Below are positions 583-4,798 of a stretch of DNA of 38,499 bases, in pieces (the stretch's first letter is position 1; every line of letters begins with the position of its first letter). The position numbers and the translations under genes were made by a program. The DNA is from Thermoguttaceae bacterium (GTDB lineage Bacteria; Planctomycetota; Planctomycetia; Pirellulales; Thermoguttaceae). The notes beneath the pieces were generated by a model, which did not search any database, was not told the DNA's origin, and was given only the letters and a program-made list of their open reading frames with translations. Location of the stretch: contig JAFSMW010000056.1 of NCBI GenBank assembly GCA_017447745.1, positions 1 through 38,499 of the forward strand, given 5' to 3'.

Positions 583-1872
583 ATGTGGTTTAAACAAGAA
601 TCGTCGAATATTTCCCATGAACAGATTCTCGAACTGGCGCGTCAGTACGCCGCCGAGGCGAAGAAGCGCATTTGCGCCAATCCGAAGCGCGTTCTGCTGC
701 TCCCGCCGGATATTACCCGCGCTCATTCCGGTTCCGGCTGGATTGTCGAAGAACTGTATAAGATCTTTACCGCCGACGGCGCGGACGTTCATCTCATTCC
801 CACTCTCGGACAGCACGTTCCGCATACGCCTGAACAGAACAAGTGGATGTTCGGCTCCGTCCCGGAAGAGAAGATTCACGTTCACGATTGGCGCAGCGGC
901 TCGACCGTAATTGGAGAAGTCCCGTCGTCGTTCGTCAAAGAGGTTTCCGGCGGAAAAGTCGATTGGGCGATTCCCGTCAGCTTGGACAACTTCCTGCTCA
1001 ACGGGAATTGGGACCTGGTTCTCAACGTCGGACACGTCGTTCCGCACGAGGTTTTGGGGTTCGCCAACCACAACAAGAACTACTTTATCGGCTTGGGCGG
1101 AAAAGACATGATTTGCGCCTCGCACCTGATGGCGGCTTGCTGCGGAATTGAAAACAACCTCGGCACGCTGACCACGCCGCTGAGAAAATGCTTCAACAAG
1201 GCGGAAGAGGACTATCTCGGATTCCTGCCGGACGCCTATTTTGAAGTCGTCATGGCTTACGACGCCGAAGGCAAGCTGGTTCACACCGGCGTTTACGCTG
1301 GCGACGACGTCGAAACGTATCTGGAAGCGGCGCGGGCGTCACAAAAGCAAAACATTACCGTCGTTCCTCCGCTGAAAAAAATCGTCGCTGTCATGCAGGG
1401 CGACGAGTTCTATTCCACCTGGGTTGCCAACAAGGCGATTTATCGAACCAGAAAAGCACTGGCGCAAGACGGCGAACTGCTCATTATCGCGCCCGGCTTG
1501 GAACGCTTCGGCGAACAGCCGGAAATCGACGCGATTATTCGCAAGTACGGCTATTCCGGAACGGAAAACGTCATGCGGCTGTACAGGGAATGCCCGGACG
1601 ACGGCGATTTGAAGAACTTTGCCGTCGGAACCGCTCACCTGATTCACGGCTCTTCCGAAGGACGGTTCAAGATTACCTACGCCCCCGGCAAGATGAGCCA
1701 GAAAGACATCGAATCCGTCTGCTTTAACTACGCCGACATCAACGAAACGCTCAAGCGTTACAATCCCGCCGAGCTGAGAAACGGGTTCAACACCATGCCT
1801 GACGGCGAAGAAATCTACTTCATTTCCACGCCGTCCGCCGGTCTGTGGAGCACGGCTGACAGACTGAACTAA
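583..1872 (+). CDS. LarA-superfamily nickel-pincer 2-hydroxyacid racemase/epimerase
   Basis: This 429-residue protein matches the lactate racemase (LarA) superfamily, which interconverts stereoisomers of 2-hydroxy acids with the nickel-pincer nucleotide cofactor. Visible landmarks are PDITR at 42-46, GQHVPHT at 76-82 (His78 fits LarA His108), and the segment from Pro154 to Met176. There His155, Lys165 and His181 keep the exact LarA spacing of His174, Lys184 and His200, so the cofactor lysine and metal ligands look intact. The usual SGG around the lysine is replaced by ANHNKN, which suggests a subfamily with a substrate other than lactate, perhaps a sugar acid. HGSSEGRF near the C-terminus is also family-like. 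No larB, larC or larE is in the window, so the cofactor must be made elsewhere. The gene is GC-rich with C-ending codons, is monocistronic, and ends before a strong terminator. The substrate is unknown. Confidence 0.85.
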   Translation: MWFKQESSNISHEQILELARQYAAEAKKRICANPKRVLLLPPDITRAHSGSGWIVEELYKIFTADGADVHLIPTLGQHVPHTPEQNKWMFGSVPEEKIHVHDWRSGSTVIGEVPSSFVKEVSGGKVDWAIPVSLDNFLLNGNWDLVLNVGHVVPHEVLGFANHNKNYFIGLGGKDMICASHLMAACCGIENNLGTLTTPLRKCFNKAEEDYLGFLPDAYFEVVMAYDAEGKLVHTGVYAGDDVETYLEAARASQKQNITVVPPLKKIVAVMQGDEFYSTWVANKAIYRTRKALAQDGELLIIAPGLERFGEQPEIDAIIRKYGYSGTENVMRLYRECPDDGDLKNFAVGTAHLIHGSSEGRFKITYAPGKMSQKDIESVCFNYADINETLKRYNPAELRNGFNTMPDGEEIYFISTPSAGLWSTADRLN

Positions 1873-1991: not shown

Positions 1992-2450
1992 TTAGCCGTC
2001 TTGCTTTGGTTGTTTTGGAAAGGTTTTAGTAGTATGCTTATGAGTACTCAACAGAATCTTGACCGCTTCGGCAGCCGCCGCTTCTGATTCTGGAGTCCAT
2101 TCGCCATTGTCTCGCAAATAGGTAAAATCCTGGTAACGGGAAGAAATTTTTCTCGTAATTGGCGTGTTATCAAAAGCTGTTTCAATTGGAATAGTTTCTT
2201 TGAAATCGAATACTCTCAAAATTGGATATTCATGACGTTCTTTTCCTTCCTCATTGATTTCAATCTTTGAAGGTCCAACTTCAACAACAGCAACGATACC
2301 TTGACCCTCCTGTGATTGGTGAAGAATTAAACAATTGCAATCAACAAATTCGCGACTTCTATACTCTTCTTTTTTCTCTCCGCTTTTAATATCTTTGACA
2401 AATTGCGGTTGAATTCGAATCAAAACAGGTCTTTTTGCTTTGAATGCCAT
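1992..2450 (-). CDS. ASCH/PUA-like domain protein
   Basis: This is a 152-residue soluble protein. Residues 8-30 (VLIRIQPQFVKDIKSGEKK followed by EEYRSREF) resemble the start of ASCH domains, in which a short strand, a helix with I-x-SGEK and an E-x-R motif line a putative RNA-binding groove. Residues 40-55 (LILH to AVVEV) fit the next strands of the same beta-barrel. The start is well supported: GGAGG lies 8 bases before the ATG. The C-terminal 20 residues are Lys/Thr/Gln-rich and probably disordered. The gene is AT-richer than its neighbour at 583. ASCH proteins act in RNA-related or nucleotide-related roles, and no specific role can be given here. The domain is assigned from motif memory, not a search. 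Confidence 0.6.
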   Translation of the reverse strand: MAFKAKRPVLIRIQPQFVKDIKSGEKKEEYRSREFVDCNCLILHQSQEGQGIVAVVEVGPSKIEINEEGKERHEYPILRVFDFKETIPIETAFDNTPITRKISSRYQDFTYLRDNGEWTPESEAAAAEAVKILLSTHKHTTKTFPKQPKQDG

Positions 2451-3667: not shown

Positions 3668-4798
3668 CTAACGTTTTCCTTTTTCTTTTGACAGCAGCGT
3701 TATAACGCGTTGATGAACGGCGTTTTCTATCTGTCGAGCGCAGGTTTGATAGAATTCCATCGTGCCGCCGTAGGGGTCTAAAATATCGACGTTTTCCGGA
3801 TTGAGCAACCGAATTCTCGATTCCGCCTGAGGAAATGCGATGACAAGCGCTTTCCTGTGAGATTCGCAAAGTGTGAAAATATAATCGGCATAACGAATAA
3901 GCGTTTCCGAAACCGTTTGAGCGGCGTGTCCGGACAAGTCCAGCCCTTTACGTTTCATAACCGCTTGGGCGTAGTCGGAAGCCGGCATTCCTGAAATGGC
4001 AGACAAACCGCATGACAGCGCAAACCAGCCTTTGTCTTCCAACCTGTCAGGAGAGCATTTGAGCTGGTCAGCCATCTCTTTTCGGAATAGCGTTTCTGCA
4101 ATCGGAGAGCGGCACGTGTTGCCCGAACAGACGAACAATACAATCGTAGACGAAATACGTCGAATCTGGGCTGGCGACAGCGCGCCAGCGCGAAGAATTG
4201 CCGGCGTATTGCCGTCAAACTTGACAACGGTAGACGACTGCTTCCATCGGGTTATTCCGTCGTCCACAATAATATCGAGGTCGTTTTTGAGGTCGTCGAT
4301 AACCTGTTTTCCGTCCAGCGGGTCTTGAACGCCGTGATGGTTCGCGCTGGTAAGCAAAAGCGGAGAGCCAATACGGCGTAATATTTTCAGCGTCAGCGGA
4401 TGATCCGGAATTCGAATTCCAACGCACCCTTTGGGCGCGCACGCCTGAGTTACGATTGGCGGGAAGGCGTCTAACGCTCCTTCGCGAAGCGGCAGAACAA
4501 ACGTAATCGGACCGGGACAGACGCGGCGAAACAGCTTTTCTACCTTGGATTTCCAAGGCGCAGCCAGTTTTCGGGCAGATTCAATATCTGGAACAACCAG
4601 AGAAAACGGGCTTTCCGGCGTTCGCTCTTTGAGGCGGCTAAGCCGTTCGATAGCAAAGGTTGACGTTGGCGCGGCGGCAATTCCGTACACCGTCTCGGTT
4701 GGAAGAGCGACAAGCGCCCCCGACTGAATAGCTCTCGTCAGTCGTTGCACTTGATGTTCCAGCTGCGACGGATCAAATTGGATTATTTCCGCTGTCAT
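3668..4798 (-). CDS. Fusion of Sua5/YrdC threonylcarbamoyl-AMP synthase and low-molecular-weight phosphatase
   Basis: The protein has 376 residues and two enzymes in one chain. Residues 15-210 are a YrdC/Sua5 domain with ALPTETVYGIAA (31-42), KERTPESPF (57-65), PGPITF (95-100) and LLTSANHHG (148-156). This activity makes threonylcarbamoyl-AMP for the tRNA modification t6A. Residues 218-370 are a low-molecular-weight phosphatase with P-loop CSGNTCRS (Cys224 to Ser231) and the general-acid loop DPYGG (Asp341). Position 228 is Thr, as in the protein-arginine phosphatase YwlE (CTGNTCRS), rather than the Ile typical of tyrosine phosphatases (CLGNICRS). In Firmicutes the two genes (ywlC, ywlE) are close neighbours; here they are joined. 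Both active sites look complete. No Shine-Dalgarno is visible before the ATG at 4798. Confidence 0.88.
   Translation of the reverse strand: MTAEIIQFDPSQLEHQVQRLTRAIQSGALVALPTETVYGIAAAPTSTFAIERLSRLKERTPESPFSLVVPDIESARKLAAPWKSKVEKLFRRVCPGPITFVLPLREGALDAFPPIVTQACAPKGCVGIRIPDHPLTLKILRRIGSPLLLTSANHHGVQDPLDGKQVIDDLKNDLDIIVDDGITRWKQSSTVVKFDGNTPAILRAGALSPAQIRRISSTIVLFVCSGNTCRSPIAETLFRKEMADQLKCSPDRLEDKGWFALSCGLSAISGMPASDYAQAVMKRKGLDLSGHAAQTVSETLIRYADYIFTLCESHRKALVIAFPQAESRIRLLNPENVDILDPYGGTMEFYQTCARQIENAVHQRVITLLSKEKGKR

Follow-up and report, generated by a model that had tools for sequence, protein, structure and literature searches.

The gene at positions 3668-4798 of the window (the whole stretch of 38,499 nucleotides analysed here, from a Thermoguttaceae bacterium) encodes on the minus strand a single chain of 376 amino acids, in which a threonylcarbamoyl-AMP (TC-AMP) synthase of the TsaC/Sua5 family is followed by a low-molecular-weight (LMW) phosphatase of the YwlE type. 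We consider it fairly probable that this is one chain with two enzymes, a TC-AMP maker and a YwlE-type phosphatase, which arose from fused neighbour genes and is tied to the machinery for t6A, an essential tRNA modification with TsaC/Sua5 as its first enzyme. The fusion is a new arrangement of known kinds of enzyme.

The first-pass annotation had listed the open reading frame without a strand; the frame was confirmed on the minus strand, where it starts with an ATG at 4798 and stays open for 376 codons, and the plus strand of the same interval carries stops throughout. The claim that both enzymes reside in one chain was borne out by Pfam, as PF01300 (E 6.8e-47) covers residues 23-205 (4184..4732, minus) and PF01451 (E 5.7e-28) residues 220-363 (3710..4141, minus), both matches being far above the cut-off. 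The Sua5 half also matches the NCBIfam model TIGR00057, L-threonylcarbamoyladenylate synthase, with 145 bits (cut-off 123.2), and alignment columns place intact active-site motifs at K57-x-R59 (4622..4630, minus) and S151-A-N153 (4340..4348, minus), so that the TsaC core with its K-x-R and SAN motifs resembles that of known enzymes (YwlC, TsaC2). Unlike long-form Sua5, the protein has a phosphatase in place of the C-terminal SUA5 domain (PF03481), which was absent from the Pfam scan. On these grounds the window copy very probably makes TC-AMP.

The phosphatase half combines the PF01451 fold with a CX5R(S/T) P-loop and a general-acid Asp, as expected for LMW protein tyrosine phosphatases (LMW-PTPs). 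Its P-loop reads, as had been claimed, C224-S-G-N-T228-C-R230-S231 (4106..4129, minus) with C224 as nucleophile, and alignment to YwlE, which has DPFGG, identifies D341 (3776..3778, minus) in D-P-Y-G-G as the general acid. In the homologue alignment the P-loop columns C, G, N, C, R and S and the D341 column are invariant. Since both active sites are intact, the window protein is most likely bifunctional.

A ColabFold AF2 model of the whole protein, built with 23 homologues, had a mean pLDDT of 95.8 and a pTM of 0.88. Foldseek searches with this model returned full-length Sua5 proteins first, with YwlE (4etn, 4pic) best among the phosphatases; by sequence, the closest PDB entries to the phosphatase half are 4egs and then YwlE (4pic, 4kk3). 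YrdC/TsaC-like domains also occur within the larger enzymes HypF and TobZ, but there the partner is a Kae1-like domain and not a phosphatase. An assembly join as the source of the fusion was ruled out, as dozens of independent genomes have the same one-frame architecture. Elsewhere in the window, a LarA-like homologue is encoded at 583-1872 (plus strand; NF052594, 'nickel-dependent putative hexonate epimerase', above cut-off), and a 152-residue protein at 1992-2450 (minus strand) has no Pfam or NCBIfam match and is, as we take it, ASCH/PUA-like in look.

In a scan of 84,980 species the fusion was found, among the matches listed, in Planctomycetota, where it is widespread, in Ca. Omnitrophota, in Ca. 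Aerophobetes and in two Bacillota, and in five other Bacillota loci among these matches Sua5 and the phosphatase are encoded by neighbour genes. That ywlC and ywlE stand as separate neighbours in Firmicutes thus holds for these five loci, in which 440-512 nt of a shared strand, filled by the C-terminal region of Sua5, lie between the two domains, but not for the two fused ones. The latter encode three-domain Sua5-SUA5-YwlE proteins (L253:614-2398 and L258:3980-5587, Ca. Fermentithermobacillus), which share with the window protein the union of both partners in one chain, the Thr P-loop and McsB in both genomes. In contrast to the window protein they have kept a SUA5 domain (PF03481), which separates the halves, and in a tree their Sua5 halves group with Bacillota; in fusions outside Bacillota only 3-22 residues separate the profile-matched domains, and the SUA5 domain is absent where scanned. 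The retained SUA5 domain and the position of the Sua5 half imply that the Bacillota fusion is separate, so that mapping the fusion on a phylogeny, as the first-pass annotation had proposed, gives at least two fusions of the pair.

Tree tests agree with this number. A single clade of all fused phosphatases was rejected (AU test, p 0.004). For the planctomycete, Omnitrophota and Aerophobetes proteins taken as one clade the phosphatases gave p 0.025, but the Sua5 halves were compatible with it (p 0.49), which again sets the number of fusions at no fewer than two; deep forks of the phosphatase tree are poorly resolved. Frames of 497-616 residues that looked like a triple fusion with RpiB were rejected, since in the cases checked the extra residues come from open frame that precedes the gene. 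We searched for viral copies of the fusion and found none, and the open-access literature, of which our coverage was incomplete, yielded no description of a Sua5-phosphatase fusion.

This history also suits a plainer account, namely that an operon of two unrelated housekeeping enzymes became stuck together in one chain with no link between t6A and arginine dephosphorylation, a reading that we take seriously without thinking it the probable one. The genes are neighbours in Bacillota and were fused at least twice where adjacent, and in 4egs, a Thermoanaerobacter tengcongensis (T. tengcongensis) phosphatase deposited as RpiB, which has the P-loop CTGNTCRSP and is nearest to the phosphatase half among solved structures, the apparent fusion partner is a different neighbour gene, rpiB. 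Fusion of adjacent genes may therefore explain the join by itself, including what the first-pass annotation had taken as a sign of a functional tie between t6A synthesis and protein dephosphorylation. Against this account, however, the fusion is retained across most of a deep phylum even though separation is possible, as the phosphatase stands alone in some planctomycetes, and the Sua5 domain is still attached, not lost, in lineages where its active site has changed.

These changes are confined to the fused proteins in our sample. All 47 stand-alone Sua5 proteins retain the equivalents of K57, R59, S151 and N153, whereas among 118 fused proteins 73 have an intact Sua5 active site, 7 carry one change and 38 two or more, a changed active site being defined by alignment columns and checked by two methods. 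Proteins with two or more changes span at least 12 of the 41 surveyed family codes and include every member examined of families f4 and f7. The phosphatase C/R/D triad is intact in all 118, and 36 of the 38 proteins with a changed Sua5 half have Thr at the fifth P-loop position (X5). As the loci were partly found via the phosphatase, which favours intact phosphatases, we also considered a less biased subset found with the whole fusion, in which the Sua5 half was changed in 7/27 and the phosphatase in 0/27. Examples of a changed Sua5 half with an intact phosphatase are L023, L025, L030, L031, L084, L085, L088, L090, L102, L106, L108, L113 and others; a single-sequence AF2 model of the L030 protein had a pLDDT of 40.

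A changed copy is rarely the only match in its genome: the fusion is the sole match in 1/29 genomes with such a copy versus 22/54 genomes with an intact one (p 2e-4; p 0.003 at family level), a contrast that would follow if the essential reaction in changed-copy genomes fell to another Sua5. This second Sua5 is presumed from match counts; G216 has only one LMW phosphatase, so that its second match must be to something else. Active-site loss in about a third of the fused proteins argues against a simple two-enzyme reading, and lineages in which the fold has outlasted its catalytic residues suggest that it has a structural, docking or sensing role there. In several of them, judged from the aligned residues, the Sua5 fold has probably become a non-catalytic part of the phosphatase.

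Such losses could mean that the Sua5 domain senses a ligand or serves for docking (of ATP, threonine, TC-AMP or a t6A protein) that controls removal of phosphoarginine (pArg), catalysis being secondary and lost several times. We find this doubtful. It would account for the changed Sua5 sites beside uniformly intact phosphatases and for the scarcity of sole matches among changed copies, and the high-confidence model and short linker are in line with it, but the window copy is intact, the changed residues could also abolish ligand binding, finding loci partly via the phosphatase favours intact phosphatases, with 7/27 versus 0/27 remaining in the less biased set, and the second Sua5 is a presumption. 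A more specific form, in which the planctomycete TsaC/Sua5 domain, repeatedly without its active site, would be the sensor or targeting part of an arginine phosphatase and the t6A state (threonine, ATP, TC-AMP or TsaD contact) would decide which pArg proteins escape ClpC, appears rather unlikely to us.

Returning to the reading as two enzymes in one chain, the P-loop bears on the likely substrate of the phosphatase half. In YwlE and Staphylococcus aureus PtpB the fifth P-loop position sets specificity for pArg (Thr) versus phosphotyrosine (pTyr; Ile) (PMC8001253). That the fusion has Thr at this position, as the first-pass annotation noted, proved correct: the residue is T228 (4115..4117, minus), and among 99 fused proteins in a census of Planctomycetota loci, 86 have Thr and 8 have Ser at X5. 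The stand-alone relatives in the census are mostly of the tyrosine type (CLGNICRS or CMGNICRS) or the ArsC type, and only 5/34 stand-alone non-ArsC LMW phosphatases have Thr at X5 (p 2e-14 against the fused proteins). When X5 is masked, a YwlE-type profile gives the window phosphatase 117 bits and an Ile-type profile 51 bits, and 58/58 fused domains in the test set favour the YwlE-type profile, a result that separates them from the Ile type only, as ArsC proteins lean towards YwlE too. The phosphatase tree, with its poorly resolved deep forks, does not add to this preference for YwlE over the Ile type. The likeness to YwlE/PtpB of Bacillus, Geobacillus and Staphylococcus comprises the LMW-PTP fold, the C(T/S)GNTCRSP P-loop, the DP(F/Y)GG acid loop and McsB in the genome; in contrast to these enzymes, the window phosphatase is the C-terminal domain of a Sua5 protein, occurs outside Gram-positives and is known from sequence. 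Taken together, these features make a preference of the phosphatase half for pArg likely.

That it acts instead on pTyr or another substrate, the P-loop Thr being incidental, we regard as quite unlikely: Pfam and NCBIfam assign it to the general LMW-PTP family only, a few fused members carry I, L, M or R at X5 and Omnitrophota mostly Ser, but Thr or Ser occupies X5 in 94/99 fused versus 5/34 stand-alone proteins, the fused phosphatases are YwlE-like beyond the P-loop as well, many Planctomycetota genomes have separate Ile-type enzymes, and McsB is present. Five of the six fused proteins with M, L, I or R at X5 are from McsB-bearing genomes. One planctomycete fusion (L199:4001-5074) has the Ile P-loop CTGNICRS, and no McsB was found in its genome, possibly reflecting a switch to pTyr or an incomplete genome.

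The search for mcsB that had been suggested was successful in the host genome (4.35 Mb, 249 contigs, 87% complete), although on another contig than the fusion. McsB is encoded at L002:93-1136 on contig C59, matches NF002194 ('protein arginine kinase') above cut-off and has McsB structures as nearest solved relatives, 6fh1 being the best PDB entry. The McsA-McsB-ClpC set is completed by an McsA-like protein, assigned by its CxxC motifs and a UVR match and encoded at L311:979-1614 (plus strand) on contig C67, and by a ClpC-like protein on contig C112, assigned by two Clp_N repeats together with a UVR motif. The host McsA-like gene lies apart from mcsB, whereas in most relatives it is directly upstream. 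The fusion is the sole match for both Sua5 and LMW phosphatase in this 87% complete genome; no second copy of either was found in its 249 contigs.

The McsB family is present in 371/392 Planctomycetota genomes, usually with an McsA-like gene just upstream of mcsB in the loci read, and in 24/27 further fusion genomes beyond this phylum survey; fusion-bearing genomes with McsB include 5/6 from Omnitrophota, the one from Aerophobetes and both from Bacillota. An absence of arginine kinases from fusion genomes, named in the first-pass annotation as evidence against its reading, was therefore not seen. Co-occurrence within the phylum was rejected as proof, since McsB is near universal there whatever the phosphatase state, which leaves such a comparison without statistical power. 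The positive control with PF00217 gave no match in B. subtilis, unexpected for an McsB species, but other Bacillota genomes matched, so that the family search works. Families f46 and f77 (e.g. G088, G217 and G206) have near-complete genomes, several of them complete in f46, with McsB but mostly without an LMWPc match; McsB thus does not need this phosphatase.

A route from TC-AMP to arginine phosphorylation leads via TsaD, which uses TC-AMP. The B. subtilis enzyme is phosphorylated at Arg282, degraded via McsB/ClpCP and stabilised by YwlE, and the R282K variant is stabilised (PMC7546277). By analogy, this work provides a concrete candidate for the tie between t6A synthesis and dephosphorylation. 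The host genome encodes TsaD on contig C154, with the conserved Arg of GGVAANxxLR to which Arg282 aligns; as this motif is conserved everywhere, its presence gives no specific support. For this alignment Arg282 was placed on what we take to be the B. subtilis sequence, checked against Bacillota homologues only. That TsaD and the t6A machinery are the favoured target of the phosphatase half is a tentative proposal.

In the mechanism that we propose, the N-terminal TsaC/Sua5 half would supply TC-AMP for tRNA t6A synthesis and the C-terminal YwlE-type half would strip the McsB mark from proteins before these are degraded by ClpC-ClpP. The fusion, born from joined neighbour genes, would tie both the amount and the position of the phosphatase to the t6A machinery, and attachment to the TC-AMP maker would place the phosphatase close to TsaD. 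The likeliest benefit would be that t6A enzymes, TsaD first, are shielded from turnover by McsB/ClpC. In other planctomycete lineages the Sua5 half, without its active site and still attached, would serve the phosphatase as a non-catalytic component.

Work on arginine phosphorylation has centred on Gram-positive bacteria. Nearly all sampled Planctomycetota genomes have McsB, whose likely phosphatase is joined covalently to an enzyme of universal tRNA modification. That the Sua5 active site was lost repeatedly while the phosphatase stayed intact constitutes a natural experiment on the purpose of the fused domain, and the fusion itself would be the physical form of a link that in B. subtilis is so far only genetic, the stability of TsaD via McsB/YwlE.
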